Origin: Flagellimonas meridianipacifica
GTDB taxonomy: Bacteria > Bacteroidota > Bacteroidia > Flavobacteriales > Flavobacteriaceae
Assembly: GCF_003001695.1 (NCBI RefSeq)
Contig: NZ_PVYX01000001.1
Span: 372,001 to 436,000 of the forward strand
Reading direction: 5' to 3'
Length of the DNA: 64,000 bases
A model generated the notes under the pieces. It saw nothing but the letters and a program-made list of their open reading frames with translations, did not search any database and had not been told where the DNA came from. Shown one piece after another: positions 42,887 through 64,000 of the stretch. Position numbers and translations under genes: made by a program. Numbering within the stretch: the first letter of the stretch is position 1; each line of letters starts with the position of its first letter.

Positions 42887-42959
<73 letters not shown>

Positions 42960-43253
42960 CAAAAGACCCTCGCAAACACTTGTTTTGCGGGGGTTTTTTG
43001 ATTAGAGCTCTCAAATGTGGTCTAAAACATCTGGGGTTATCAGCAAAATAAGTGCTTCCGAGACTTTGTCCCTCATACCATATCTCCATTTCAGCTGAAA
43101 AACTGATTCAAAATTTCCAAAAGTTTTTATACAATAGCACCCCTTACCATAGACGCTCTTTAAGGTTAAAATTGTTTACAGAAACGTAAAGCTTGCTCAC
43201 TTCCTGAATTTTGCTTTCTTCCCTTAACTTAGTGGTCCATCAATGATTCCAAT
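42960..43253 (+). terminator. tRNA-Phe terminator and non-coding left border of the accessory region
   Basis: The stem CCCTCGCAAA / TTTGCGGGGG (42967-42976 with 42984-42993) followed by six T forms a strong terminator for the tRNA. The remaining roughly 250 bases to the first element gene hold no convincing ORF or repeat. Confidence 0.75.
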
Positions 43254-44591: not shown

Positions 44592-46114
44592 TGGCTTTTG
44601 AGTACTTTGATCCGAGTTTCAAATTTTGGGGATTGAAAAGACGTAGGCCGGAGGTGAACTACTACAACTTCATAAAATTCCTTGGTCACCTCAACATCAT
44701 CAAAATAAGATTGAACGATAGGAACCACTTGGCAGTTGTCAAGGGCAATATTGTCGAGACAATAACGATTGAGCAGTTGTCAAAATTGGTGTTGGACAAG
44801 ATTCTTAATCGACTTCCCGAATCGTACGATTTCAAGGAAAGACAAATGGCAGCCAACGTCATAGTGGAAAAATCACAAAAGCTGTACCATTCAAATACCT
44901 TAAACTATCTTGAATGTAAAGAGCTTCCCATTCGCAGGGATAGCAAAAATTCCTGCGCCATCAACTTCAGTAATGGTATCCTCCACATATTTGCCAAAGA
45001 AGTCGAATTTGAAAAACATAGGGATGTTAAGTCATTGATATTGAAATCCAGCATTGTTGACCATGAGTTCAGCATAGAAAAAGAGAGAGGTGATTTTCGT
45101 TCGTTTGTATGGAAAGTCTCGGGAAGAACCTTGAATCGCTACAAAGCCCTGGTTTGCACTCTTGGTTATCTAGCACATCGCTATAAGGACCCAGCAAATC
45201 CCAAGATTGTCATTTTGGTGGATGAAATTGCCGATGAGCACAATATTGCCAATGGCGGTCGTGGAAAATCCCTGTTGCTACGTTGTCTAAAGTATATAAG
45301 AAACTGTGAGGAGATTGCCGGAAAGACATTTCAAAGTTCGGCCCGGTTCGCCTACCAGCGGGTAACAATAGCCACCAATAACATCCTAATCAACGATGTC
45401 ACGAAATATGAGTCTTTGGACAATTTTTACAATGTGAGCTCAGATGACTTTGTAATTGAGCGGAAATTTGAAAAAGAGGAGGTCATACCCTACAAATACT
45501 CCCCAAAGATTGCCATAACCGCCAACAACCTGCTCAAACAGACCGAAGGGTTTAGTTCTGAACGGCGCAAGCATGAAATTGAAATAAGCGGTTATTATGG
45601 AAAGCACCTTAACCCAAAAACCGATTTTGGAAGGACGCTGTTCGATGAATGGGACACGGAGGAATGGAACCGATTTTACAATTTCATTGCTTGGTCGGTT
45701 TCGTACTATTTAAAATTCGGTCTGGTAGAAGCTCCAAAAATCAACATCAACCAACGCAAGCTACTGAACCAAGTGGGACCAGAGCTTACCGAATACCTCG
45801 ACGAACTTCTTAGGCTAGGAAAGACCAAACTCCATAAAAAGGACACTTACAACGAGTTTATAAAAGGAGGTTACCTCAATAGAAGGTACATCCCCAACCA
45901 AGGTTCTTTTACAAGAAAAATCAAAAAATACTTTGAATACCGTGAACTCAATTATCGTGAAGTACCCTCGGATACTAGGCAGTACTTTGAAGTATTGACC
46001 CAAGGGGGAGCTACCGATTCAGAACCGACATCGATAAAGGACATAGAGGTCGACTACCAACTGGTCAAAACAAAGGCAAAGATGTCGTCAATCCTAAAAA
46101 TAATAAAGGAATGA
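44591..46114 (+). CDS. P-loop replication helicase-like protein of the integrative element
   Basis: A 507-residue protein. A Walker A loop appears as NGGRGKSLLLRCLKYI at about residue 221, followed by a Walker B-like ILINDV and a sensor-type stretch KIAITANN. The order resembles superfamily 3/D5-type helicases of phages and plasmids. The N-terminal 180 residues are unassigned and might hold a primase or DNA-binding part; the C-terminus resembles a winged helix (KDTYNEFIKGGYLNRR). It overlaps the next gene, a DNA polymerase, by 4 bp, supporting a shared replication role. Confidence 0.72.
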   Translation: MAFEYFDPSFKFWGLKRRRPEVNYYNFIKFLGHLNIIKIRLNDRNHLAVVKGNIVETITIEQLSKLVLDKILNRLPESYDFKERQMAANVIVEKSQKLYHSNTLNYLECKELPIRRDSKNSCAINFSNGILHIFAKEVEFEKHRDVKSLILKSSIVDHEFSIEKERGDFRSFVWKVSGRTLNRYKALVCTLGYLAHRYKDPANPKIVILVDEIADEHNIANGGRGKSLLLRCLKYIRNCEEIAGKTFQSSARFAYQRVTIATNNILINDVTKYESLDNFYNVSSDDFVIERKFEKEEVIPYKYSPKIAITANNLLKQTEGFSSERRKHEIEISGYYGKHLNPKTDFGRTLFDEWDTEEWNRFYNFIAWSVSYYLKFGLVEAPKININQRKLLNQVGPELTEYLDELLRLGKTKLHKKDTYNEFIKGGYLNRRYIPNQGSFTRKIKKYFEYRELNYREVPSDTRQYFEVLTQGGATDSEPTSIKDIEVDYQLVKTKAKMSSILKIIKE

Positions 46115-47844
46115 AAAAAATCATCTGTATCGATTGTGAGACGGACGGATTGGATGTAAACACCTGTAATCTGGCAGGAGTGGCAATTTCGATTGAGAAA
46201 AACCAGGGATGGTATGTTCCGTTGGAGAAAAAAAACAAGGTAGGCTCCGACGCCATTTCATTTCTTAAGGACCTATTGGGCAATCCACAATTAATCGTTG
46301 TGGGCCATAACCTAAAATTTGACCTACAGGTTTTAAAAAACCACGGAATCCAAGTCAATGGTGAAATCCATGATACCATGGTTATGGACTATGTACTGTC
46401 CCCACAACGCAAAAAACATGGGCTCAAACTCCTTTCGAAAATCCATTTGAACTATGACCAATTATCTTTTGACAAGATGATGGGAAACCATGGTTCAATA
46501 TGGGAAGTCCCAATTAAAACCCTTACTAAATATGCCTGTGAGGACACAGACCAGACTTTACAGATTTTTCATCATCTAAACCCAAGAATCCAAGAATCCG
46601 GGGTCGGTAATATTTACGACCTCGACAGAAAGTTGGTAGCTGTGTTGGCAAGAATGGAATCCAATGGTGTTGCCATTGACCAAAAACTGCTTAAAAGTAT
46701 TGCCAAAAAACTTCAAGATGATTCATTGGTCCTCGAAGAATCTATCATTGGTGACCTTATACCCGAAATAAACCTCAACTCTACCAAGGACATCAATTGG
46801 TTGCTTTTTGAACACTATGCTATCCCTCCTATTGGAAAAAAAACCAAACAGGGCAACTACTCTGTGTCAAAAAAAGTGCTTTCCAAACTCTCGGCCGACC
46901 ACCTTATTGTCAAAGAACTTCTGGAACTCAGGGCAACAAAAAAGGTCCTGAGCACCTTTATTCCCGCACTTTCAAATTTAAATCCGCTGACCAACAAACT
47001 GCACTGTTCAATCAACCAAACTGTGACCGAAACAGGAAGGCTGAGCTGCTCCAAGCCAAATCTCCAGAACATCCCGAGCAGGACTATCGGAAAAATGCTG
47101 CGCCAATGCTTTGTGCCCTCCTCAAAGGACCATGTTCTTATCGGTGCCGATTACAGTAACATAGAACTGAGGGTCATGGCGGTTCTCAGCCAGGACAAAA
47201 ACTTGTTGAACGCATATAAGAACGGAATCGATGTCCACAGATTAACCGCGTGCAAGTTGCTCGGGATAAAAAATATTGAAGATGTGGACGATATGCAACG
47301 AGACGTTGCCAAATCATTGAATTTTGGATTGATCTATGGCATGGGAGCACATGGACTGGCTGAGACCTTGTCCAATGTCACCAAAAAGCAACATACCCCG
47401 CAGCAGGCGCAAGAGATAATCGACAGCTACTTCGCCAATTACACCGATGTTGCAAAATGCAAGGAAAACTTGATATACCAGGCAACGGTTAAAGGTTATA
47501 CCGAAACCCTGTTTGGCAGAAAAAGACCCATCCCCGACATCAACAGCAATGATTCAATTAAGCGCCAAATGTCCAAAAGATTGGCCATGAACACACCCAT
47601 ACAAGGTACAGCAGCAGATATCATGCGTATGGCAATGGTAAATATTGACCAGCAGCTTACAAAACAGAAATTAAAGAGCAAAATGATACTGACCGTTCAC
47701 GATGAACTGCTTTTCGATGTTCCGAAACATGAAATTACAATCATGGAGGAATTGGTGCGGCATGAAATGGAAAACGCCGCCCAAATCGGTATTGCCCTTG
47801 AGGTAGATTTAAAGACTGGAAATAACTGGGCTGAGGTACACTGA
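46111..47844 (+). CDS. Family A DNA polymerase with 3'-5' exonuclease domain, mobile-element type
   Basis: A 577-residue polymerase without the 5' nuclease domain of cellular Pol I. Residues 1-170 are a DnaQ-like proofreading domain (CIDCETDGL, VGHNLKFDL, YACEDTDQTL, so the acidic residues are intact). The polymerase domain has motif A DYSNIELRVMA, motif B with RDVAKSLNFGLIYGMG and motif C VHDELLFD. It should be active. It is distinct from the host polA by size and location and lies between helicase-like and integrase genes, so it likely replicates the element. Confidence 0.93.
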   Translation: MKKIICIDCETDGLDVNTCNLAGVAISIEKNQGWYVPLEKKNKVGSDAISFLKDLLGNPQLIVVGHNLKFDLQVLKNHGIQVNGEIHDTMVMDYVLSPQRKKHGLKLLSKIHLNYDQLSFDKMMGNHGSIWEVPIKTLTKYACEDTDQTLQIFHHLNPRIQESGVGNIYDLDRKLVAVLARMESNGVAIDQKLLKSIAKKLQDDSLVLEESIIGDLIPEINLNSTKDINWLLFEHYAIPPIGKKTKQGNYSVSKKVLSKLSADHLIVKELLELRATKKVLSTFIPALSNLNPLTNKLHCSINQTVTETGRLSCSKPNLQNIPSRTIGKMLRQCFVPSSKDHVLIGADYSNIELRVMAVLSQDKNLLNAYKNGIDVHRLTACKLLGIKNIEDVDDMQRDVAKSLNFGLIYGMGAHGLAETLSNVTKKQHTPQQAQEIIDSYFANYTDVAKCKENLIYQATVKGYTETLFGRKRPIPDINSNDSIKRQMSKRLAMNTPIQGTAADIMRMAMVNIDQQLTKQKLKSKMILTVHDELLFDVPKHEITIMEELVRHEMENAAQIGIALEVDLKTGNNWAEVH

Positions 47845-48832: not shown

Positions 48833-50065
48833 ATGGCAACAATCAATTTTCAACTGACCCAGACCCAGACCAACCGTAGAAAAAAGAATCCAATCCATAT
48901 GATAATGATAAGGTACTCGCACCAAGGCAGGTCAAGACTGTTTTACAGTAAAAAATCGATAGATATTCGATATTGGGACAAGGGAAAGCAGATGGTAAAG
49001 CGAAGCTATCCAGGACACAGTACGCTCAACATTTACCTCAGGAAATTCAAGCAAAAAATTGAGGACATTGTCAACCGTGCGTTGATAGAAGACATCAATC
49101 CTACTGTAGATCTGGTCAAGTCAACATTTCGAAGGAATGCGCCGAGCGTTGGCAAAACCCAATTGTTGTTTTGGCAGTTCATAGACCAACATATGGAAAA
49201 CAGCAAGGTCCGTCTGAATCCTCATACGATAAGGTCTTATAACAATTGCCTTAACAACCTCAAGGCTTATGAGCGGTTTTGTAAAAAGACGATTTGCTGG
49301 GAAAACATCGACATGCAGTTCTACCATGAATTTATGGATTTTTACCTCAATTACAAGCAATTAACTGTGAATGGGTTTGGGAAAGTGATAAAGGTTCTTA
49401 AATCATTCCTCAATGAGGCAACAGAACAGGGCCACAACAAAAACCGCACCTACAAATCCAAGAGTTTCCGTGTCCTCAGGGAAGAGGTGGACAATATCTA
49501 TCTAAACGAAGGTGAACTTAATATTCTATTTAATTTGGACCTTTCGGGCGATTCTAAACTTGAAAAAGTACGAGACCTTTTCTTAATAGGGTGTTTTACC
49601 GGATTGAGGTTCAGTGACCTCTCAACATTATCATCGGACAAAATAGTTGGTAATATCATAAGACTGAGGACTCAAAAAACAAGTGAAGAAGTGTGCTTAC
49701 CATTATTACCAATCCCTCAAAAAATAATCGCGAAATATAATGGGTCTTTGCCCAAAGCGTATACCAACCAAAAAATGAACCAATATTTGAAACAGATTGG
49801 GAAAGAAGCAGGTCTAGATGAAAGAATAGTAAAATATCATACATCGGGTGAAGGAAGGATAGAGACCAAATATGCCAAACATGAACTGATTTGTACACAT
49901 ACGGCAAGGAGGTCGTTCGCTACTAACATGCACCTTAGAGGGATTAGTACATTGGTCATTATGAAACTGACCGGGCATAAGACCGAGCAGTCGTTTATGA
50001 ACTACATTAAGATAAGCAAGGAGGAAAACGTCAAATTATTCCTCAAACAATTCAACCATGGTTAG
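48833..50065 (+). CDS. Tyrosine recombinase / integrase
   Basis: A 410-residue Bacteroidota-type integrase. An arm-binding domain (1-85) and a SAM-like core-binding domain (about 105-210) precede the catalytic domain. Catalytic residues seen are Arg in TGLRFSDL, HTARRSF (His-x-x-Arg), His in LTGHKTEQSF and Tyr in MNYIKIS. It should catalyse insertion and excision of the element, most likely at the tRNA-Phe locus about 6 kb to the left. The gene is the last of the same-strand element block. Confidence 0.93.
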   Translation: MATINFQLTQTQTNRRKKNPIHMIMIRYSHQGRSRLFYSKKSIDIRYWDKGKQMVKRSYPGHSTLNIYLRKFKQKIEDIVNRALIEDINPTVDLVKSTFRRNAPSVGKTQLLFWQFIDQHMENSKVRLNPHTIRSYNNCLNNLKAYERFCKKTICWENIDMQFYHEFMDFYLNYKQLTVNGFGKVIKVLKSFLNEATEQGHNKNRTYKSKSFRVLREEVDNIYLNEGELNILFNLDLSGDSKLEKVRDLFLIGCFTGLRFSDLSTLSSDKIVGNIIRLRTQKTSEEVCLPLLPIPQKIIAKYNGSLPKAYTNQKMNQYLKQIGKEAGLDERIVKYHTSGEGRIETKYAKHELICTHTARRSFATNMHLRGISTLVIMKLTGHKTEQSFMNYIKISKEENVKLFLKQFNHG

Positions 50066-52974: not shown

Positions 52975-55140
52975 TCATAGGTTCAGGTTGACTAAAATCA
53001 CAAACAATGATAACTTGACGCTTGATCTTTCATATTTATATCTAAGCACTTTCATTTCAGACCCATTTACATAAATATGTGACAAATCCTCCGTACTGAT
53101 TGATTTAATTCCATTAGTTGAAAGGGTTTTCAAGTATTTAGAAAACTTTTCGTGTAAAGTAATAAAGCTGTTTGCTTTGCAATATACCCCGACAAATTTT
53201 TCCCTTAATCCGGTAGGATCATAATGTTTGATTGTTTTTTCAATATGCCTGGCAACAATACTTTTTCTAAAAGAGTCTAAGATAAAACCCTCATATATGG
53301 AAACATTCAATTTATCAGCAGTTTCAATTGCAATGTCAAGTCTTCCTTGTGAATTTCCAGATTCCGATTTTCCTTTAAAAGATTGTTCGTTTGTAATATA
53401 GCCATCTTTGATTAGCATTGGTGACAATAAGTCTTGAAAGAATGTGTTAATCTCATCTTCATTAAACCTTTCAACAAGCTTATGTCTCGTTTGTAAATAT
53501 GAGAGGGCTCTTACAAAGCTACGTACTAAAGGAACGCTAATTTTCTTGGATTTATAGCCAATAAGCATTTCTTTAATTTCTGCCCTTTCCGTGCTTTTAG
53601 GACAATCAATCTGCTCCTTACTTCTGGTCAGAAACCTTTTCAAAACGTTTTTGCTAAAAAAGTAAGGATTACTACCTGAAGAACATTCCGAACAATTACA
53701 TGCTATCTTTTCATCAAAATCATCAGTATTCAGCTTCAGGTCTCTATGGATTCTATCTATTTCATGACTTAGCACGCTGAACAATTGTGAGGGAGTGTCT
53801 CCCTTAATAATTAGGTTTATTTTTTTTTCAATCTTATTTAGATGAATTAAAGCTCTATTATTTTCGTCATTAAAAACCGCACCGTATCTCCAAAAGTTTG
53901 TTCCCTCTAAGTTATTATTTAGTCTACATATGAGTCTTTCAATAATACCATGAATCAAGAAAGTATATTCTATTTCATATTTCAAAGAATCACCTAGCCT
54001 AAAGTATTCCAAAATTGTTCTATCCGGCGGTGAAACTGTTAATAAGGATGGTATTATATATTTATTCCTAGACCCAATTATTTTAAAGCAAATTTCGAAT
54101 TTCTCCATCATTGACAATATTCCAAGGTACGTACTCATTGGATATGTGTCCTGATCTAAATGCTCTGATAAATCCTCTACTGAGAACAGTCCTTTGTTTT
54201 CTTGTATTTTCTTGGTTTGAACAAGCTCATAAATGGCTTTAGTAATCCAATGAGGATTTAGTATAATAATGTTCTTTAACGAAATATCGTCATTAAAGTG
54301 TATAATGCCTCCTATATCTGTCAAGTATTCACTTAAGAAATGAAGGTTTTCTGGTTTATCTAGGCCACATATTTCAGCAAACTTTTCTAAATCAATATAG
54401 TCTTGGTCTAATTCCCTCAATCTTAATCTGATTATATCCCATGCACTAGGTAATTTATCCCCCATATGAGGAATTTCTGATATAGCGTTTTTGATATCAT
54501 AAATTAAGTTATCAATACCTTCCTTAGTAAGGCATGATACGTAGTGAAAACTTATGATGTTGTTAAACTTTTTCAAGTACCCGTTTTCATCAATGCTTTT
54601 AATTCTTACATCGGACTTATTCATTACAACAATAACAGGACTGTTCAAACTCAATCTTTTGATTACGTTTAACCAATAGTCGAAATTCTCTTCCTCAGTG
54701 TCAGATCTAGGCTCCCAAACAAATAAGTAAATTGATCTTTTAGTTAAGAAAAATTGATGTGTGGAGTATAAAATTTCCTGTCCTCCAAAATCCCAGATAT
54801 TAATTTTGACTCCTTTCTTAAAATAAAAATCATTTCTCACCGTTTTGTAAGGCTCTTCAATAATTCTTAATTCCATGTAATCGTCCATGTAATCGAATTC
54901 TGATTGCAAAAAATCGTCTGGATCATACGGATAGTAAAGGAACTTTTTCTCAGATGGGTGAAACTCTTTGAAACAAAGCATATCGAAATCTAAACTTCTT
55001 CTGTAAAAAGGTTTTTTAGCTGGAAAATATATTGACTTGGTTATAGATTTGATATTTATTCCATGAGTACTCTCTTCTTCACCTAAGGCCACTTCAGTTT
55101 TAGAATCTGAAATTGTCCTCATTAGAGTAGTTTTTCCCAC
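52975..55140 (-). CDS. Roc-COR GTPase part with C-terminal nuclease-like domain
   Basis: From GTG 55140 this is 721 residues, but the true domain begins upstream (GKGDV precedes it), so this is a fragment of the frameshifted gene. Roc motifs are DFGGQE (117-122) and MNKSD (173-177). A COR domain follows to about 470, with a Cys cluster CNCSEC near 490. The last 130 residues (GRLDIAIET, then SIYEGFIL) resemble a PD-(D/E)xK-type nuclease or a relative. ROCO proteins with nuclease-like tails are not commonly described; the assignment is tentative. Confidence 0.7.
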   Translation of the reverse strand: MGKTTLMRTISDSKTEVALGEEESTHGINIKSITKSIYFPAKKPFYRRSLDFDMLCFKEFHPSEKKFLYYPYDPDDFLQSEFDYMDDYMELRIIEEPYKTVRNDFYFKKGVKINIWDFGGQEILYSTHQFFLTKRSIYLFVWEPRSDTEEENFDYWLNVIKRLSLNSPVIVVMNKSDVRIKSIDENGYLKKFNNIISFHYVSCLTKEGIDNLIYDIKNAISEIPHMGDKLPSAWDIIRLRLRELDQDYIDLEKFAEICGLDKPENLHFLSEYLTDIGGIIHFNDDISLKNIIILNPHWITKAIYELVQTKKIQENKGLFSVEDLSEHLDQDTYPMSTYLGILSMMEKFEICFKIIGSRNKYIIPSLLTVSPPDRTILEYFRLGDSLKYEIEYTFLIHGIIERLICRLNNNLEGTNFWRYGAVFNDENNRALIHLNKIEKKINLIIKGDTPSQLFSVLSHEIDRIHRDLKLNTDDFDEKIACNCSECSSGSNPYFFSKNVLKRFLTRSKEQIDCPKSTERAEIKEMLIGYKSKKISVPLVRSFVRALSYLQTRHKLVERFNEDEINTFFQDLLSPMLIKDGYITNEQSFKGKSESGNSQGRLDIAIETADKLNVSIYEGFILDSFRKSIVARHIEKTIKHYDPTGLREKFVGVYCKANSFITLHEKFSKYLKTLSTNGIKSISTEDLSHIYVNGSEMKVLRYKYERSSVKLSLFVILVNLNL

Positions 55141-55250: not shown

Positions 55251-55640
55251 CTAATTCGTAAGGTAAATTGTCAAGAAAAGATTGTTTTCATAAAGTATGT
55301 GTGATACACCAATTTTCAACAAACTACTTGGTATGAAGTTAAATTGGTTATTGGAAATATTAATTTCTTTAAAAGAGTAAGCTCTACCTAGCATAAAGTT
55401 TAAGTCGCTAAGATTATTGTTACTTATATTTAGGTAGTGTAGATTATCTAATGAATAAATTTCGTCAGATAGGATATTGAGGTTATTATAGCTTAAGTCT
55501 AAATCCATAAGAAAGTTCAACTCCCTAATTTCGTGGGGAATTTCAACTAACTCCAGAAAACTTAAATCTAAATATCTTAGATGATTCTTTTTTGCTTCTC
55601 GAATCCTTTTTAAAGCAATTTCATAATTTTCTGATGCCAT
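55251..55640 (-). CDS. Leucine-rich repeat part of the ROCO gene
   Basis: A 129-residue fragment with about four LRRs of the type LxxLxLSYNNL (DLSYNNLNIL, NISNNNLSDL, NISNNQFNFI). It ends in a stop at 55251 after a frame change. In intact ROCO proteins such repeats precede the Roc domain directly and are thought to sense ligands or proteins. It begins with MASENYEIALKRIREAKK. Confidence 0.75.
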   Translation of the reverse strand: MASENYEIALKRIREAKKNHLRYLDLSFLELVEIPHEIRELNFLMDLDLSYNNLNILSDEIYSLDNLHYLNISNNNLSDLNFMLGRAYSFKEINISNNQFNFIPSSLLKIGVSHILYENNLFLTIYLTN

Positions 55641-55978: not shown

Positions 55979-56286
55979 TTCAACTAGGAATTGAACCAGA
56001 TATGACTTTAAGGATTCTCTAGCTGCTTTTGCCGCTAGAAAACTTTATTTATTCAGGAAAAAGTAAGAAGCATAAGCTGTTACCACCTAAAAGAAGTATA
56101 AATTTGAATGTGTTCAAAACATTTACACATGGTGTAAAATATATTGACAATACCTAGAAGTCTTTTATTACATTTTATTATTAAAATTTTGATAATCAGC
56201 AACATATATATATGGCATGAATTTAGATCAATAAATTGGAAAAACAACGACTTTGTGCAACAGTAATTAGTTCAAAACCTAATCCG
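55979..56286. promoter_or_regulatory. Non-coding region before the permease with a 17-bp dyad
   Basis: TTTACAC-ATG-GTGTAAA (56122-56138) is a perfect 7-bp inverted repeat with a 3-base centre, of the type bound by dimeric repressors, lying about 150 bp before the permease start. CTAGCTGC-TTTT-GCCGCTAG (56019-56038) is a hairpin with one mismatch. A sequence like a tRNA T-arm is at 55984-55999 on the minus strand (14 of 16 bases like that of tRNA-Phe). Confidence 0.4.
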
Positions 56287-58599
56287 ATGAAAACTTTTAT
56301 AAGGACTTTTTTCAGATATCTTCTTAAGAACAAGCTTTACACATTCGTTACAATCTTTGGGTTTTCTATTGCTATTACTTTCGTGTTTTTTTTAGGCACA
56401 TATTTAATTAATGAATCATCAGTTGATGGGTTTCACGTCAACGGAGATAGAATTTTCAGAATTGAACATGAGGGAACAGAATTTTCCGCCCCTATCGCTC
56501 CCATTTTATCAGAATTAGTGCCAGAAATAGAAAGTTATACGCGAACATATGACAATAAATCAATCATAAACCATATAGGTGAAGAAAAATTTGAGATTGA
56601 TTTATTAGCAGTAGACAGTTCTTTTTTTGAAATTTTTTCTTACTCCATAATAGACGGACAGAATGTTCTGGAAACCAAAAGTAGCATTGTTTTAAGTGAA
56701 TCATTGGCAAAAAAAATGTTTTCCAGCCGGAATCCCATAGGTGAAACCATAAGCTTGGACAACAAATTCCAATTTATCATTACAGGAATTATGTCTGACT
56801 TTCCGGAAAACACCCATCTAAAAAAAGTTGATGCGATCGTTAATATTGGGAGTATGGGAGAAATTTTAGGCATGCAAGATTTTATGGAAAATTTCGAATT
56901 TTGCTCGCTTAGTATCTATCTTTTAGAAAAACCCAATTCTGATTTGCCTTCGAAAGCAAATGAGATATTATCCTATTTTAAAAATAACTTTTGGATATAT
57001 AAAGATGGTTATGCTTCAACTGTAGTTTTTACACCGTTAAAAGAAATTTATTATAGTCAGAAAGAGGGTAATTGGACTAAAAACAGTAGTAAGTTTCTAG
57101 TTTATGTTGTGGTATTAATTGTGTTTCTAATTTTACTACTATCAATTGGCAACTATATTAATCTGACCATCGCTCAGGCTTTTTTTCGTGGAAAAGAGGT
57201 GGCGATTAGAAAACTTGTTGGAAGTTCCAAAAATCAACTTTTCTTACAATTCTTAATGGAGTCCATTTTCCTTTGTGGGGCGGCAACTCTAATGTCAGTT
57301 TTATTTACAATTTTACTCTCCCCTTATGTAAACGACCGTTTAGGATTGAATTTAAGTTTAACCGATGAACTGAACATTGGAAGCATTTTGATTTTTTTCA
57401 CTATTCTACTATCGATTACTTTGATCTCAGGAATTATCCCAGCAATCAAGGTATCAGGATTTAAACCTTTGGAGATTGTACGCGGGAAGTTAAGACAACG
57501 TACAAAGACGGTTTACACAAAGTATTTCATAATTTTTCAGTTTACTATCACAATCGGCTTGTTAGCAAGCTGCTGGATTATAATCAATCAGACTAAGTAC
57601 TTAAAATCCAAAGATCTAGGTTTCAAATATGAGAATCTAATATGGACGGACTACCTTGGTAATCCAAATGAAAAATCAAGAATCAAGGAAGAAATAATGA
57701 AGGTCTCCGGAGTTGAGGCTATATCCATTGTATGGGGAAGTCCCATTGATGGTGGCAGCAATCAATCGTTTACTTATGAAGGAAGACCTGTAAGCTTTCA
57801 AGAAATGCGGGTAGATACCGCATTTTTTGAAGTTTTTGATATACCTGTTCAATCTAACAGTACGGCTTTTGGCAAAAAAGGAGTCTACCTCAACAATACT
57901 GCAATAAAGGAATTGGGTATTGAACGGACAGCTTCTAATGTAAATTTTGACGGGGAAAAAGTACCTATTTTGGGCTTAGTGGATGATTTTAATTTTAACC
58001 GTCTCCAACTTGGGATTAGGCCCTTGATGATAAAACAAGAAACCAAAAATTCCTATGCGAATAAAGTTTTTATCAAATTAGGCTCAAGTAAAGAAAACAC
58101 TGCCAACACGATTAAGGAAATTAAAAAAGTATATGCTGGGCTTACCAACGATAATCCTTTTGAATTAATGTTTGTAAACACAACCATCCAAGAGTGGTAT
58201 TTAAAGGAAGAAAGGCTATCAAAATTATTGTCATATTTTGCCTTTCTTTCAATAATCATCTCCTCACTCGGAATTCTTGCGATGTCTACGTATTTTTTAA
58301 AACAAAAAAGAAAAGAGATAAGTATTAGAAAAGTCAACGGAGCGACCATTACGGAAATCTTGGTTTCCTTTAACAAAAATTATGTCAAATGGGTATTTAT
58401 CGCTTTTTTAATTATCACTCCGATTATATGGTATCTTTCCGATAGATGGTTAGAAAACTTTGCATTTAGAATTAAAAACAACTTCTCTATTTATATTTTA
58501 TCATGCGTATTCACTCTTGTAATGGCACTACTGGCTGTTAGTTGGCAAAGCCTAAAGGCTGCAAAGACAAATCCAGTTCAACATTTACATGAAGATTAG
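56287..58599 (+). CDS. FtsX/MacB-type ABC transporter permease
   Basis: A 770-residue protein from Met 56287 (the frame extends 51 bases upstream with a TTG, but MKTFIRTFFRYLLKN is the normal start of the family). It has one helix at about 20-40, a periplasmic MacB-PCD domain (about 45-260), three helices (about 268-410), a second permease half with periplasmic domain, and three helices at the end. Such double FtsX permeases in Bacteroidota act in peptide or lipoprotein export or resistance. No ATPase gene is next to it. Whether it serves the peptide cluster downstream is unknown. Confidence 0.88.
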   Translation: MKTFIRTFFRYLLKNKLYTFVTIFGFSIAITFVFFLGTYLINESSVDGFHVNGDRIFRIEHEGTEFSAPIAPILSELVPEIESYTRTYDNKSIINHIGEEKFEIDLLAVDSSFFEIFSYSIIDGQNVLETKSSIVLSESLAKKMFSSRNPIGETISLDNKFQFIITGIMSDFPENTHLKKVDAIVNIGSMGEILGMQDFMENFEFCSLSIYLLEKPNSDLPSKANEILSYFKNNFWIYKDGYASTVVFTPLKEIYYSQKEGNWTKNSSKFLVYVVVLIVFLILLLSIGNYINLTIAQAFFRGKEVAIRKLVGSSKNQLFLQFLMESIFLCGAATLMSVLFTILLSPYVNDRLGLNLSLTDELNIGSILIFFTILLSITLISGIIPAIKVSGFKPLEIVRGKLRQRTKTVYTKYFIIFQFTITIGLLASCWIIINQTKYLKSKDLGFKYENLIWTDYLGNPNEKSRIKEEIMKVSGVEAISIVWGSPIDGGSNQSFTYEGRPVSFQEMRVDTAFFEVFDIPVQSNSTAFGKKGVYLNNTAIKELGIERTASNVNFDGEKVPILGLVDDFNFNRLQLGIRPLMIKQETKNSYANKVFIKLGSSKENTANTIKEIKKVYAGLTNDNPFELMFVNTTIQEWYLKEERLSKLLSYFAFLSIIISSLGILAMSTYFLKQKRKEISIRKVNGATITEILVSFNKNYVKWVFIAFLIITPIIWYLSDRWLENFAFRIKNNFSIYILSCVFTLVMALLAVSWQSLKAAKTNPVQHLHED

Positions 58600-58860: not shown

Positions 58861-59391
58861 ATGCCCCAAAACATAATAGATGGATGGATGGTTTTATATG
58901 TGAAACACCACCATGAAAAAAAAATTGCTGATAAGCTTTCTAAACAAGGTATAACGCATTATCTGCCCTTAATAAAAAGAAATTATACTTCAAAAAGTGT
59001 AAAAGAAGATTACAAAACTAAACCGCTTTTTCCAACTTATATCTTCGTAAAACCCACTTCCCGCAAGGAAATCTATATTACTCTGAAGCTGAATGGAGCA
59101 TTCAAGTTTCTTAAATATTGCGCTGAATATTCCAAGGTCAGCGATCAGGAGATTAGCTCAATTAGAAAAATTACCAATTCAGGTTTCATTAGAGACATTC
59201 AAATAAAGTACATAAAGCCTAAAGTTGGACAAGAGGTTCTAATTACTAAAGGACCTTTTCACGGATTGAGAGCGGAAGTAATGAAGAATAAAAACCTTTG
59301 TGAAGTTTATTTGCAAATAAAATGTCTGAACCGATACGTTAGCGTGATTGCTCCATTGAACAGCCTAAGTATTCAAAGTGTAAAAATATAA
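58861..59391 (+). CDS. NusG/UpxY-family transcription antiterminator
   Basis: A 176-residue protein. The NGN domain (1-100; GWMVLYVKHHHEKKIADKL and LFPTYIFVK) is followed by a KOW domain (about 118-176; VGQEVLITKGPFHGLRAEV). Specialised NusG paralogues of this size (RfaH, UpxY, LoaP) prevent premature termination of one long operon located next to them. Being first in the peptide cluster fits that role, with the hairpin at 61756 as one possible point of control. It is followed by the oxygenase gene after 27 bp. Confidence 0.88.
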   Translation: MPQNIIDGWMVLYVKHHHEKKIADKLSKQGITHYLPLIKRNYTSKSVKEDYKTKPLFPTYIFVKPTSRKEIYITLKLNGAFKFLKYCAEYSKVSDQEISSIRKITNSGFIRDIQIKYIKPKVGQEVLITKGPFHGLRAEVMKNKNLCEVYLQIKCLNRYVSVIAPLNSLSIQSVKI

Positions 59392-59418
59392 GTTTCATTA
59401 ACCTTAAAAATAATCTAG

Positions 59419-60009
59419 ATGTCTAATAAGCAAAAAGTCTTAACCAAGACTAATGTTACTACCTTCTCTATTGAATCCCAAAAAATACATATCATAGATG
59501 GCGCTTTGAATTTGGACTTAGTAAATCAATTTTTCGATTACGTTTCAAAACTTTCATTTAAAAAAAATGAAAGAGATGACTATGACGATCGTTATCCAAT
59601 ATTTAGTACAGATTTTAAAACTGATTTGTTCGAAAAAGAAACTGAGATTGGGAAAACCGCGAGAGGTTTTGTTACTAAGTTTTATAATGAAAAGGTATAC
59701 AATCTTAATAGGTCCTATATTAATATGTCATTTTATGGAGATATGGAGTTTCCACATAGAGATTGTCAAATAAATGAAGATGACATTACGGTTCTTTATT
59801 ACGTAAACAATGTTTGGGACTATCGCTGGGGAGGAGAAACTCTCTTCTATTCTGGGCGCGATACCGTAAGAGCTATATTGCCAACGCCAGGAAGATTCTT
59901 AATATTTCCAGGCAACATTGAACATACAGGTTCGGTTCCAACACGAATATGTAATGTGCCTCGATTTAGTTTGGCTATGAAGTATGTTTCCGCAAACCAC
60001 CAAAACTAA
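59419..60009 (+). CDS. 2-oxoglutarate/Fe(II)-dependent oxygenase
   Basis: A 196-residue enzyme with a double-stranded beta-helix core. The iron ligands are His113 and Asp115 (HRD) and His169 (EHTG); the 2OG-binding pair is RFS at about 182-184. The fold matches the 2OG-FeII_Oxy_3/prolyl-hydroxylase-like group, which hydroxylates amino acid side chains. In the peptide cluster it probably hydroxylates a precursor residue; which one cannot be told from sequence. The regulator gene follows after 50 bp. Confidence 0.87.
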   Translation: MSNKQKVLTKTNVTTFSIESQKIHIIDGALNLDLVNQFFDYVSKLSFKKNERDDYDDRYPIFSTDFKTDLFEKETEIGKTARGFVTKFYNEKVYNLNRSYINMSFYGDMEFPHRDCQINEDDITVLYYVNNVWDYRWGGETLFYSGRDTVRAILPTPGRFLIFPGNIEHTGSVPTRICNVPRFSLAMKYVSANHQN

Positions 60010-60059
60010 ACGTCCTGCTATTAATTGAAATATCCGATTCAAACAATAAGTTTTACAAC

Positions 60060-61067
60060 ATGTATCGTAAGAACTTTTTTACCTGTCTTATTATCGGGAG
60101 CGAGACAATAAGAAGTAGTATTGAGTCAGTTCTAAAAGAATCTGCATCGTTACAGTTTGTCCAAATAAGGGAAGCTCCTATATCCTTTCTAAGAAAGAAA
60201 ACATTCGATTGTGCAGTGCTCTATTGGAAAAGTAATAGTCCGATTATGCTGGAATTAGCTGCAAAAATTAAAGAAAACTTTCAAGAACTTCCGCTAATTG
60301 GGATTGTAAGTCCTGAAATCAAACCAGAAACTATAAGAAAGTGCGGAGAAATAGGCGTTAACGGAATCATTAAGCGTTCTAATTTATTTACTCTGGAGGA
60401 ATTTTTGAGGAATTCAATCAATCGCTTGAATTCTAAAATTACACTCAGAGAACTAGATATTCACTTAGAAAATAAGTCAACCTTACTAGTAAGGGCCTTA
60501 AGAATAATCGAAGACAACTACCTGGTTTTGATGGGGACTTCAGAAATAGCAAAGCAATTAAATATCACCGATTGTACCTTATCAAGAGAGTTCAAAAAAA
60601 ATGAGCTACTAAATCCAAAAAGACTGCTTTTAAATTTTAAAGTAAAGCACTCCGTGAATTTAATGGAAAATCGGGGACTAAGCCTAAAAAATATTGCAAG
60701 ACAATCTGGATTTAGCAATGAACAACGATTTAACAGCTGTTTCAAAAAAATTTATTTCTGTACACCAGGAGAGTTTAGAAAAACTCTAAAAATGGACAAT
60801 AAAGAACTGACAGGAATAGAGTTCAAACAAAAAAACAGAATAAGTGTCAAAAAAAAGGAATTGAATACAGACTTAAATCAAAATACTTTTATATCAGAAA
60901 AAATTAGGAATATGAGAAAAGTGTTGCCTAAAGAGTTAAAAAAACCTTCAAGAATTGACCTGAGACATGAAGAGCAAATCGTGGGTTTTTTATGTCGGGA
61001 ATACCAGGGCGGCCCTCATTGTCGCGTTAATTCTGAAAGTGGAATAAATGAAGATATTCTTTTCTAA
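60060..61067 (+). CDS. AraC-type regulator with pseudo-receiver and C-terminal precursor-peptide domain
   Basis: A 335-residue protein of three parts. Residues 1-125 resemble a response-regulator receiver but lack the acidic pocket and the phospho-acceptor Asp (DCAVLYW in place of the usual D), so it is likely phosphorylation-independent. Residues about 145-245 are an AraC/HTH_18 DNA-binding domain (GTSEIAKQLNITDCTLSREF, shorter SNEQRFNSCFKKIY). After a linker, residues 285-335 are a copy of the precursor peptide encoded downstream (LPKELKKPSRID, C-x8-C-R-V-N, final DILF). Met285 (60912) has an AGGA before it and might be an internal start. Confidence 0.85.
   Translation: MYRKNFFTCLIIGSETIRSSIESVLKESASLQFVQIREAPISFLRKKTFDCAVLYWKSNSPIMLELAAKIKENFQELPLIGIVSPEIKPETIRKCGEIGVNGIIKRSNLFTLEEFLRNSINRLNSKITLRELDIHLENKSTLLVRALRIIEDNYLVLMGTSEIAKQLNITDCTLSREFKKNELLNPKRLLLNFKVKHSVNLMENRGLSLKNIARQSGFSNEQRFNSCFKKIYFCTPGEFRKTLKMDNKELTGIEFKQKNRISVKKKELNTDLNQNTFISEKIRNMRKVLPKELKKPSRIDLRHEEQIVGFLCREYQGGPHCRVNSESGINEDILF
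60912..61067 (+). other. Precursor-like C-terminal segment of the regulator (possible internal gene)
   Basis: 51 residues in frame with the regulator. Alignment with the following three peptides gives matching LPKEL, Cys at position 28 of the segment, Cys 37 followed by Arg-Val-Asn, and the end EDILF. The preceding bases TTAGGAATATG contain a possible ribosome-binding site, so a free 51-residue peptide could be made from the same mRNA. Only experiment can show whether it is free or fused. Confidence 0.6.
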
Positions 61068-61077
61068 AGAAATAAAA

Positions 61078-61248
61078 ATGGGAAAAAGAAAAAAATTAAA
61101 GAGTTTACCAAAAGAACTAATTAAGCCAGAGAAAACAGATACATTTTTTACAACTCAAATGGTTGAGTTTATGTGCCGAGAAAATGATCACGCAACTACT
61201 TGCCGTGTTAACTATGGTATGAATGAAGAAAATGACATATTATTTTAA
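61078..61248 (+). CDS. Putative RiPP precursor peptide 1
   Basis: A 56-residue peptide with the LPKEL leader motif (LKSLPKELIKPEKTD) and a core VEFMCREN then TTCRVN. It ends ENDILF. The start at 61078 aligns with the other copies; a longer frame from 61048 exists but its extra ten residues have no counterpart. It follows the regulator by 10 bp. It has no signal peptide, so it would be modified in the cytoplasm. Function as a precursor is inferred from tandem copies, small size and the neighbouring modifying enzymes. Confidence 0.75.
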   Translation: MGKRKKLKSLPKELIKPEKTDTFFTTQMVEFMCRENDHATTCRVNYGMNEENDILF

Positions 61249-61275
61249 AAATTAAAAATCTTTAAAACCGAAAAA

Positions 61276-61443
61276 ATGAAAAACAAGAAATTGAAAGCAT
61301 TGCCTAAAGAATTGGTTAAACCAACAGAGATTGACCTCAACACTTCAGGAGATTCAGTAGAATTTTTATGTAGGGAGTTCGGTAGTGGAACCACTTGCAG
61401 AATCAACGGAGCTATTGATGAGGAAAGTGATATTTTATTTTAA
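61276..61443 (+). CDS. Putative RiPP precursor peptide 2
   Basis: A 55-residue peptide beginning MKNKKLKALPKELVKP. The core has VEFLCREF then GTTCRIN, and it ends ESDILF. It lies 27 bp after peptide 1 in the same orientation. It is too short for standard gene calling thresholds. The conserved pattern among copies is LPKEL-[IVK]-KP, C-x8-C-R-[IV]-N and DILF, with variable residues between, as expected for a leader plus variable core. Confidence 0.75.
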   Translation: MKNKKLKALPKELVKPTEIDLNTSGDSVEFLCREFGSGTTCRINGAIDEESDILF

Positions 61444-61468
61444 TTCAATAAACCTTAAATTTTAAAAC

Positions 61469-61639
61469 ATGAAAAAAGAGAGACAAATTCCAAAGTTGCC
61501 AAAGGAGTTAATTAAACCTTCAGAAATTGATACCGAGGCAAAAGGAGGCGCAGTTGAATTCCTTTGTAATGAGTTTGGTAACGGAACAACCTGCCGGATT
61601 AATCGGGGGATAGATGAAGCAGATGATATTCTTTTTTAG
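61469..61639 (+). CDS. Putative RiPP precursor peptide 3
   Basis: A 56-residue peptide beginning MKKERQIPKLPKELIKP. The core has VEFLCNEF then GTTCRIN, and it ends ADDILF. Here the residue after the first Cys is Asn instead of Arg, whereas Arg after the second Cys is kept in all copies. It lies 25 bp after peptide 2, and a 431-base gap with a hairpin separates it from the radical SAM gene. Confidence 0.75.
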   Translation: MKKERQIPKLPKELIKPSEIDTEAKGGAVEFLCNEFGNGTTCRINRGIDEADDILF

Positions 61640-62070
61640 TATTTCAGTTACTTTAAAATGATGAATTCGATTTAATTAAGAAAAATGAGTTTTTGCTATT
61701 TTTTTAACTCAAATCTTAATCTATTTCTTTTTGCTTTCATTACGAATACCAGTCGCAGAAAATCTAATACGTTAGATTTTCTGATATTTGGAACAAGTGT
61801 TGAGTATAAACTTGCTAATTCGATAGAGAGCAAATCAGTTTTATACCGGTGATTGATTTATTCAGTCATCGGTTCCATCATATTTCAAAAACATAGCGTA
61901 CCATTAGGCTACATCAACCTTTCCTAAAAGTCTTTTGGCTTAAACTTCCGGGAGACACTCTAATATTTACTACAGCCCAATAATGACTAATAAGTCGATT
62001 TTTATTGGTAAAAGCAAACTATTTGCTTTGCGCAACCTTTACAACAAGTTGATTTTAAACGACATAAAAA
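61640..62070. other. Long intergenic region between precursors and maturase
   Basis: 431 bases without a supported gene. It contains the hairpin described separately. A 55-codon frame at 61685-61852 shows none of the precursor motifs, and a 43-codon frame at 61983 overlaps the maturase start; neither is supported. Confidence 0.6.
61756..61783. promoter_or_regulatory. 12-bp perfect hairpin between precursor and maturase genes
   Basis: CAGAAAATCTAA, loop TACG and TTAGATTTTCTG form a perfect stem of 12 pairs. A clear T-run is missing on its right side, so it is not a classical terminator; it may be an attenuator, an mRNA-processing or stability element, or a protein-binding dyad. Confidence 0.6.
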
Positions 62071-63531
62071 ATGATAAAGTCAAGTTTCTACAATGTGCTA
62101 ATTCCAATCGTTGAATCTGATGAATATATCCTCTACAATACAAAAAATGGGGGGTTGGAATTGTTGACTTACTCTAACGGTATTGAGTTAGAGCGCTACC
62201 ATGACATAACTTCAATTGACCTCAAGAGCGAAGGAAGAAATCTACCTATGCTTGAATATTTATATTCTAAGGGCTATTTTCTTGATGCGGATATTGATGA
62301 GCGTGAAGAGTTTCATTCATTTTATTCGAAAGAAAGAAGAGATACAACAATTAAATCTCCCGGTACTATTAACCTCACTATTGGAACAACTATTCTTTGC
62401 AACATGGGGTGTCCATATTGTTTTGAATTTGTTAAGCCAAATCTAACGCTTAAGAGTGAGGAGAACATTGTCGGAATCGCCAAATATGTGAATGACATGA
62501 TAGTAAAGTCTCCTGTAAAATCTTGGAAAACATTAAACGTAACATGGTACGGTGGAGAACCCTTAATTAACACTTTTGGAATTGAAAAATTAACTCCACT
62601 TCTCTTAGAACTTTGCGAGAAATACGGGATGGATTATAATTCTGATATTATTACAAATGGACTATTACTTGATTTAAAGACCTGGAACTTCTTAATCGAA
62701 AATAAAGTTCAAAACGTTCAGGTGACCATAGATGGTTCGAAAGAAACTCACAATAAAAGTAGACCACTGAAAGGAAAAAATACTGACACAAGAAAGAATT
62801 ACGAGAGAATATTGGAGAATCTATCTATTATGCCAACTGGAATTAAGACAAATATTAGAATTAACGTCGATAGAAAAGTAGCGTCTAGTTTCGCGGAATT
62901 TTTCGAAGATATGGAAAGTTATGGTATATGGCCTATGAGATTTTCGGAATTCAATTTTAGTCCTTCGTGGCTTAGGGTTTATGAAGAAGCTGGAGATTAT
63001 GACAGTTCTGAAGGCCTAAGTAATCCTGAATTTTTTGATGTACTACAAGACTTCCGCGCTTTAAAAATAAAATTATTCAATAAATGGGCCACAAAGAATA
63101 ATATACCTCAGGCAAAGTTGAAATGGACTCTTCCATCCAAACAGCAAGATTGCGCAACCTGGGTTTCTCCTTATAGTATGGTTATCGACCCTTTAGGATA
63201 CATTCACAAATGTTGGGAGACTATTCACGATAAAAAAAGAAGTGTCAATCATGTAAATTCTGGCTATAGTTTTGATGATTTCAAAGAATATTTTGACTTT
63301 GACCGATTCCAATTGCATCAAGACTGCTACGAATGTAAATACCTGCCGGTCTGTGACCAATTATCTTGTTCTCATCAAGCAATTGAAACCGGGAAACCAC
63401 CATGCACATATTGGAAGGAGAGAACAATACCATTTGTTAAGGAACAATATCTAATGTTGAAAAATCATCCGGACCTCATAAGTGCTCCCATTAATCAAAA
63501 GTTTGAGAATACCGGCCATACCAATAAATAA
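62071..63531 (+). CDS. Radical SAM/SPASM peptide maturase
   Basis: A 486-residue enzyme. Cys110-x3-Cys114-x2-Cys117 binds the SAM-cleaving 4Fe-4S cluster, and WYGGEPL (159-165) is the SAM-binding GGE motif. The C-terminal SPASM domain has seven cysteines (361, 381, 419, 422, 428, 433, 445), enough for two auxiliary clusters as in sactipeptide and related peptide maturases. The N-terminal 90 residues may hold a precursor-recognition part. It likely forms a thioether or C-C bond, or epimerises, in the Cys-containing precursors encoded upstream; the reaction is not determined by sequence. The UPF0489 gene follows after 29 bp. Confidence 0.92.
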   Translation: MIKSSFYNVLIPIVESDEYILYNTKNGGLELLTYSNGIELERYHDITSIDLKSEGRNLPMLEYLYSKGYFLDADIDEREEFHSFYSKERRDTTIKSPGTINLTIGTTILCNMGCPYCFEFVKPNLTLKSEENIVGIAKYVNDMIVKSPVKSWKTLNVTWYGGEPLINTFGIEKLTPLLLELCEKYGMDYNSDIITNGLLLDLKTWNFLIENKVQNVQVTIDGSKETHNKSRPLKGKNTDTRKNYERILENLSIMPTGIKTNIRINVDRKVASSFAEFFEDMESYGIWPMRFSEFNFSPSWLRVYEEAGDYDSSEGLSNPEFFDVLQDFRALKIKLFNKWATKNNIPQAKLKWTLPSKQQDCATWVSPYSMVIDPLGYIHKCWETIHDKKRSVNHVNSGYSFDDFKEYFDFDRFQLHQDCYECKYLPVCDQLSCSHQAIETGKPPCTYWKERTIPFVKEQYLMLKNHPDLISAPINQKFENTGHTNK

Positions 63532-63560
63532 TTTTCCAATTCTTTTTAATTGTTAGGTTT

Positions 63561-64000
63561 ATGAAAAAAACTTCAATTCAAACCTTTGTTATAGAAGAAC
63601 ATAATGAAGCGTTTTTCGTATGGCAATATGCCCTAGCTAATGGACTTATTAAACAAAAGCAAAATTGCTTAATTCATGTTGATGAGCATTCAGACATGGG
63701 AACTCCAAGGTTTAATATTTCTATAGACAATTTAGGTTCAGATTTATCCGATATTCATGATTTTGTATTTAAGGAGCTAAACATTGCCTCTTTTATTATA
63801 CCCTCAATTTATAAAGGTTTATTCCGAAGTATTTATTGGGTTAAACAAAAACATAGAAAATCTTCAATCACTTCAAATAAAATGTATGTCAAATCCTTAA
63901 ATGATTCCGGTAAGAAATTGATGTCTGGTAAGATTGAAGATATACCTAAGATTATCGAGGAGTACAGAAAGTCCAGTACAACATACAAAGAATTTGAGTA
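63561..64000 (+). CDS. UPF0489 family protein, probable peptide arginase (3' end outside window)
   Basis: The first 146 codons are in the window. The start MKKTSIQTFVIEEHNEAFF and the motif HVDEHSDMGTPRF are typical of UPF0489, whose ureohydrolase-like fold binds metal through the D-x-H-x-D residues. A member of this family (OspR of landornamide biosynthesis) is, as I recall, a peptide arginase converting Arg to ornithine. The precursors keep Arg next to the second Cys in all four copies, so that Arg is a likely target. This last step is inference. Confidence 0.82.
   Translation, partial: MKKTSIQTFVIEEHNEAFFVWQYALANGLIKQKQNCLIHVDEHSDMGTPRFNISIDNLGSDLSDIHDFVFKELNIASFIIPSIYKGLFRSIYWVKQKHRKSSITSNKMYVKSLNDSGKKLMSGKIEDIPKIIEEYRKSSTTYKEFE

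Follow-up and report, generated by a model that had tools for sequence, protein, structure and literature searches.

An apparent flm RiPP cluster on a tRNA-Phe island of Flagellimonas meridianipacifica, with a likely fourth FlmA substrate in its AraC-type regulator gene

Do the small peptides encoded at the end of this 64,000-nt stretch of Flagellimonas meridianipacifica DNA (the window) belong to a new RiPP cluster, and which enzymes modify them? A first-pass annotation had proposed an undescribed cluster in which genes for a NusG, a 2OG-Fe(II) oxygenase, an AraC regulator, three tandem peptides, a seven-Cys SPASM maturase and a UPF0489 (peptide arginase-type) protein lie in one direction with short gaps. 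A check of open reading frames in the window recovered all of these genes on the + strand and in that order. Most intergenic gaps are indeed short (10-50 nt), but 431 nt lie upstream of the maturase. The three tandem peptides are present, but the AraC gene holds a fourth precursor, and the cluster extends 10 kb beyond the window end to a total of about 15 kb. Precursors were scored with the FlmA model NF052472 (cut-off 30 bits); the model scores of FlmC, FlmE, the peptides and full-length FlmR are far higher than chance would give.

58861..59391, + strand: UpxY-type NusG antiterminator (NF033644, 101.3 bits, just above the cut-off of 100)
59419..60009, + strand: FlmC, 2OG-Fe(II) oxygenase (NF052475, 295 bits)
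60060..61067, + strand: AraC-type regulator with in-frame FlmA tail (HTH_18, 58.5 bits; folded part residues 4-246)
60912..61067, + strand: FlmA0, fourth precursor, 51 aa, from an internal ATG at 60912 (63.6 bits)
61078..61248, + strand: FlmA1 precursor, 56 aa (75.6 bits; Arg 4, 34 and 43 as published)
61276..61443, + strand: FlmA2 precursor, 55 aa (74.1 bits; Arg 33 and 42 as published)
61469..61639, + strand: FlmA3 precursor, 56 aa (71.8 bits; Arg 5, 43 and 46 as published)
62071..63531, + strand: FlmE, radical SAM/SPASM maturase (NF052473, 809 bits, cut-off 500)
63561..64000, + strand: FlmR, peptide arginase, first 146 of 310 residues in the window, ending at C1:436493 (PF12640; full length NF052474, 408 bits, cut-off 350)
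Past the window: S41 protease, lyase-fold protein, S8 protease/TIGR04066 fusion, JmjC oxygenase, carrier-like protein, AcpS, ABC exporter, condensation enzyme

The flm cluster of this species was described in 2025, and its FlmR was reported to convert core arginines of FlmA1-3 to ornithine, the targets being FlmA1 R34/R43, FlmA2 R33/R42 and FlmA3 R43/R46 (PMC12703449). Peptide lengths, arginine positions and eight FlmR residues named in the text of that paper match those found here; by these positions, rather than by letters, the locus appears to be the published one. The DD(I/V)LF peptide family was published in November 2025, apparently with this locus (PMC12703449), and NCBIfam holds models for FlmA, FlmC, FlmE/OhkG and FlmR/OhkR, so the cluster can no longer be called undescribed. 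The proposal that a UPF0489 arginase acts on these peptides agrees with the reported FlmR activity (PMC12703449). The main text of that paper gives three precursors, whereas four are present here, and a term search of it found no mention of AraC, NusG, oxygenase, acyl carrier or subtilisin, some of which its supplementary tables may list. The FlmR reaction on FlmA1-3 is the finding of others; what is added here is the fourth FlmA, the island, the 15-kb extent, the tracking of core arginine with arginase and the co-occurrence of a TIGR04066 domain with a carrier protein.

FlmR contains EEHNEAF (residue 12), DEHSD (41) and LDIDLDYFSC (163), three motifs that hold six metal ligands. As given in the published text, OspR/landornamide-type peptide arginases (PF12640) have the DXHXD, EEHNEAF and LDIDLDYFSC motifs in common with FlmR, but the FlmR precursor is of the FlmA type and not NHLP (PMC12703449). 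In FlmE the CxxxCxxC motif comprises Cys 110, 114 and 117, and the C-terminal cysteines 361, 381, 419, 422, 428, 433 and 445 are invariant in 26 aligned relatives; its score of 93 bits with the PapB model is under the cut-off of 340, so thioether formation is indicated by model similarity only. FlmC has H113-x-D115 and H169 conserved across six aligned relatives. The radical SAM and 2OG enzymes may, like FlmR, act on the peptides.

The relation between the arginase and the core arginine was compared across genomes. Of 19 genomes with PF12640, 18 have a core arginine, as against none of the six that lack PF12640; five of these six come from one genus. The single exception among the arginase-containing genomes was locus L020. 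Precursors of four genomes (G577, G399, G400 and G401) were missed by the genome-wide profile search and were taken from locus-level matches (E of 1.4e-5, 8.1e-5, 2.4e-17 and 1.4e-4, respectively; L020, from G400, was in the seed). When these four are left out, core arginine is found in 16/16 genomes with arginase and 0/5 without. The precursor count was 31/32 after a weak match (L154, E 0.039) was left out and 32/33 before; L021, which has no recognisable precursor, was excluded. Searches seeded with the peptide alone were positive in 4 of the 145 genomes of the Pedobacter group and in 5 of the 79 from the Chitinophaga group, and FlmA was found in 0 of 396 other genomes of the same family. 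Co-occurrence of peptides and arginase, the check put forward in the first-pass annotation, was largely borne out: all nine peptide-seeded genomes also have PF12640, but six genomes have peptide and maturase with no PF12640 genome-wide. None of the peptides of these six has the core arginine, and in three of them, of the genus Chryseobacterium, lysine occupies its position.

The cluster lies downstream of a tRNA gene in the window, where the following features were identified.

42887..42960, + strand: tRNA-Phe (GAA), island insertion site (tRNA call)
42948..42962, + strand: left 15-bp direct repeat, right copy past the window at G000:C1:446387-446401
46111..47844, + strand: DNA polymerase family A gene (PF00476, 424.6 bits)
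48833..50065, + strand: tyrosine recombinase (PF00589, PF13102 and PF17293 above cut-off)

The 15-bp repeat occurs only twice in the 4.38-Mb genome, once at the 3′ end of the tRNA gene, and encloses 31.4 kb whose cargo is low in G+C; a search for direct repeats of at least 22 bp within the window had returned none, the right copy lying outside. Maribacter flavus presents an uninterrupted right side, where roughly 260 bp separate tRNA-Phe from the genes for APH and ADP-ribosylglycohydrolase; the left neighbour CoaX is not near tRNA-Phe in that genome. Two genus relatives (G229 and G384) were rejected as uninterrupted sites, the flanking gene being missing. As read from these sequence features, the flm cluster is carried on a genomic island inserted at tRNA-Phe, which would explain its patchy spread. 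No flanking tRNA was found at the other clusters (0 in 18 loci). An FtsX permease gene at 56236-58599 was considered as a cluster member and rejected, since twelve further FtsX genes in the genome match the FtsX of the Maribacter cluster better than it does. FtsX genes are present in several related clusters.

The fourth precursor was missed by the first-pass annotation. The FlmA model matches residues 290-335 of the 335-residue AraC protein, and this segment, FlmA0, retains LPKEL, KP, two cysteines, two target arginines and DILF. DILF forms the C-terminus of all four FlmA sequences, and FlmA3 alone has the additional D in front that makes it DDILF. Between FlmA0 and FlmA1-3, pN is 0.38-0.39 and pS, which is close to saturation, is 0.79-0.89; since pN is about half of pS, FlmA0 is in use now or was until recently. 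FlmA0 is likely processed in the same way as FlmA1-3, and its synthesis probably begins at an internal start codon of its own. Taken together, the preferred reading, to which we give a probability of about 70%, is that this is the published flm RiPP cluster on a tRNA-Phe island, in which FlmR makes ornithine in FlmA1-3 and FlmA0 is a likely further substrate, probably translated from its own start.

Two other accounts of the fused reading frame were weighed. The regulator may have lost its stop codon and run into FlmA0, by accident or through an assembly error, with a longer regulator as the only effect. This account owes its standing to the fusion being known from one genome only, and the linker before FlmA0 would be stop-free by chance in 4-6% of cases and has in-frame log-odds near zero; codon statistics were uninformative as proof that the linker is coding. 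The constraint on the FlmA0 part argues against a mere accident, which we regard as unlikely, though less so than the account in which the full 335-residue fusion is functional. In that account FlmR and FlmE would bind or modify the disordered FlmA tail, and the regulator would sense free maturation enzymes and tune the operon. The uninterrupted frame is consistent with it, as are an AlphaFold2 model in which residues 4-246 are folded and 247-335 fall under pLDDT 50, and the retention in the tail of all residues that FlmA1-3 share at the Cys, target-Arg and DILF positions. The tail is absent, however, from all seven other homologous regulators found and from the AraC ORFs of loci L008 (259 aa) and L009 (274 aa), and the ATG sits precisely at the expected start of a free precursor. 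We consider a functional fusion improbable; it is similarly improbable that maturation enzymes modify a transcription factor that carries a RiPP precursor as its tail on a unit moving between bacteria at tRNA-Phe. If true, the operon would respond to the condition of its own maturation machinery, and the change of arginine to ornithine would tune gene expression.

Downstream of the window, the S8 fusion has a second domain resembling TIGR04066 of peptide maturation systems, but here that domain is joined to an S8 protease and its score of 67.4 bits is under the cut-off of 200. None of the 11 S8 domains scanned reached the QhpE cut-off. Clostridial TIGR04066 systems also contain a carrier-related protein. 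Of 22 loci, 14 contain a TIGR04066 domain, and 13 of those 14 also have a serine-bearing carrier; none of the remaining eight loci has such a carrier. This pairing suggests, at the level of sequence, that the product is acylated. A brief literature search on TIGR04066 or DUF1611 acyltransferases found no assigned chemistry. The carrier-like protein (87 aa, L002:12195-12458) could alternatively serve the TIGR04066 domain as a structural adaptor and bear no acyl group, which we hold to be somewhat less probable than even. Carrier models stay sub-cut-off for this protein (best NCBIfam match 22 bits, cut-off 72), a Pfam scan of it gave no carrier match, the HHxxxD motif is degraded in two of four condensation proteins, and the ohk-type clusters (L011, L012, L016 and L019) keep a carrier-like protein that by eye has Asp for serine. 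Set against this, the serine (S-E-S) is present here and kept in all 12 carrier proteins compared, AcpS adjoins the carrier gene (although in only 2 of 22 loci is AcpS present), and the condensation enzyme of this locus has an intact HHxxxD (HHILCDA; PF00668, 104.1 bits, cut-off 30.6). For the lyase-fold protein, a fold match to the LxmY-type lyase of class V lanthipeptides came from a relative only. A downstream APH kinase (L003:653-1660) was rejected as its partner: it lies outside the right repeat, and no match to it in the 22 loci reached an E value below 2.9.

The ohk cluster of Ohtaekwangia koreensis (L012), known from the same paper (PMC12703449), was compared here and shares the maturase, arginase, S41 protease, S8 domain, JmjC protein, ABC protein and DDVLF precursors. 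It differs from flm in having neither FlmC nor the TIGR04066 domain and in a carrier-like protein that has no serine. It also has a lipid-A-acyltransferase-like protein and three proteins of JmjC_2 type, names taken over from the L011 relatives.

A pathway can be proposed in which the UpxY-type NusG and the AraC regulator would turn on one long transcript. FlmR converts core arginines of FlmA1-3 to ornithine, the published step (PMC12703449), FlmE may join both core cysteines via thioethers, and FlmC and the JmjC enzyme may hydroxylate. The QhpE-like S8 domain would remove the leader. A free amine, either that of ornithine or the new N-terminus, could be acylated by the carrier protein and AcpS together with the TIGR04066 domain and the condensation enzyme, and the ABC protein would export the product.

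The analysis supplies candidates for further study: a QhpE-like leader protease, a lyase-fold protein, a TIGR04066 and carrier module from which acylation is predicted, and a fourth precursor concealed within a regulator gene. Genomes without the arginase lack the core arginine or have lysine at its position. Comparative evidence of this kind, apart from bench work, indicates that enzyme and residue co-evolve, and it suggests that a side-chain amine is the useful feature in some members.

The end of the window, which spans C1:372001-436000, carries a series of + strand genes. A NusG paralogue of the UpxY type comes first, then a 2OG-Fe(II) oxygenase and an AraC-type regulator; three peptides of 55-56 residues follow, and after them a radical SAM/SPASM maturase and the N-terminal part of a UPF0489 protein. 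The genes named in the first-pass annotation are thus present, and their families are confirmed by NCBIfam (release 20) models: FlmC for the oxygenase (295 bits), FlmA for each of the three peptides, FlmE/OhkG for the maturase (809 bits) and FlmR/OhkR for the UPF0489 protein (408 bits at full length). The cluster had been called undescribed, which does not hold, since these models exist and FlmA1-3 and FlmR of Flagellimonas meridianipacifica have been published (Pfeiffer and co-workers, ChemBioChem 2025, PMC12703449). That article demonstrates Arg-to-Orn conversion by FlmR for all three peptides, bearing out the earlier proposal that the UPF0489 enzyme acts on them, and gives a precursor count of three. 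The window peptides agree with the published ones in length (56, 55 and 56) and arginine positions (4/34/43, 33/42 and 5/43/46), and the quoted FlmR residues H14, D41, H43, D45, D166, D168, P176 and Y229 are present in FlmR of this genome. From these agreements we infer the published flm locus or a near-identical one (probability about 0.97). The taxid given in the article leads to the same species name in NCBI taxonomy.

A fourth FlmA sequence, FlmA0, forms the in-frame tail of the AraC-type regulator, whose residues 290-335 match the FlmA model with 63.6 bits (cut-off 30). In the alignment, LPKEL, KP, both cysteines, both target arginines and DILF are all kept, and an ATG at 60912 (Met 285) lies where a free 51-residue precursor would be expected to start. 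Comparison with FlmA1-3 gave pN of 0.38-0.39 and pS of 0.79-0.89; the pattern suggests constraint, with the caveat that pS approaches saturation. AlphaFold2 (8 sequences) predicted residues 4-246 as folded and 247-335 with pLDDT <50. Among eight homologous regulators from a search of 5.8 billion proteins, restricted to 0.55-1.75 times the AraC length, the tail occurred in the window protein alone. The nearest homologue has 253 residues; its contig and that of the nearest maturase (77% identical) are both listed at 57,304, and presumably are the same contig. Since a linker free of stop codons has a chance of ∼4-6%, the fusion is possibly accidental. Use of FlmA0 as a substrate is somewhat favored.

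PF12640, the arginase family of FlmR, was looked for in the whole genomes behind the related loci, this one included, and core arginines were counted from the first core cysteine to the peptide end. Core arginine was found in 18 of 19 genomes with arginase versus none of six without (Fisher p 4e-5), although independence is limited because five of those six belong to Chryseobacterium. By precursor, the counts were 31/32 (one match of E 0.039 dropped) versus 0/14. Four genomes, missed by the genome-wide profile, were counted from locus-level matches; without them the counts were 16/16 versus 0/5. The sole exception with arginase is L020, from Latescibacteria. Within Chryseobacterium, the maturase exceeded the cut-off in 6 of 173 genomes, one having arginase and core arginine and five neither. 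Lysine occupies the usual arginine place in three of these five (two aligned, the third by eye), while two have neither residue. Eleven of 74 database precursors lack core arginine, seven with lysine instead (by eye). Two Chryseobacterium loci, L149 and L097, each have five tandem precursors with cores containing neither residue, in genomes without PF12640.

The flm cluster is very likely carried on an island inserted in tRNA-Phe:

Window 42887-64000 plus C1:436001-446401 of the same genome: island of 31.4 kb in tRNA-Phe, with 15-bp repeats, carrying the flm cluster

The 15 bases at the tRNA-Phe 3′ end (42948-42962) have two copies in the 4.38-Mb genome, the second (C1:446387-446401) lying 31.4 kb from the first, just past the flm cluster; the DNA between them includes genes for a tyrosine recombinase and a family A DNA polymerase. 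G+C is 31-34% between window position ∼50 kb and the right end, compared with 37-42% outside; the recombinase end is normal (40-42%) and the cargo low. The APH and ADP-ribosylglycohydrolase genes beyond the right repeat have counterparts in Maribacter flavus, and there tRNA-Phe is ∼260 bp away from them. Neither the recombinase nor the polymerase has a match in that stretch, and the left neighbor CoaX was not found at that tRNA-Phe; the flm-like cluster of M. flavus itself is on another contig. FlmA was found in none of the 396 other genomes searched from the family of F. meridianipacifica. Also on the island, a Roc-COR GTPase ORF (52975-55140, - strand) adjoins a leucine-rich-repeat ORF (55251-55640, - strand), perhaps two parts of one gene. 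An FtsX/MacB-type permease (56236-58599) lies upstream of flm on the island, and FtsX genes occur in several related clusters; this one was rejected as a cluster member, not being their closest relative in this genome.

Related clusters outside Bacteroidota, L020 and L022 (Gemmatimonadetes), contain maturase, S41, S8-TIGR04066 and carrier genes with KEL[IV]KP-like or similar leaders; arginase was not found in the L022 genome. In the ohk-type loci L011, L012, L016 and L019, the carrier-like protein has Asp in place of serine and the S8 protease lacks the TIGR04066 domain. At L150:10569-12489 the S8-TIGR04066 gene matched as three overlapping pieces and may therefore be interrupted. FlmE is predicted, with better than even odds, to form a thioether; acylation of the FlmA product is a more tentative prediction.

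In open-licence PMC, judged by listings and abstract openings, no paper evidently describes the fused precursor, island or acyl module. The core flm finding is already known; what this analysis adds is the precursor fused to the regulator, the match of core arginine with arginase, the carrier module and the tRNA-Phe island.
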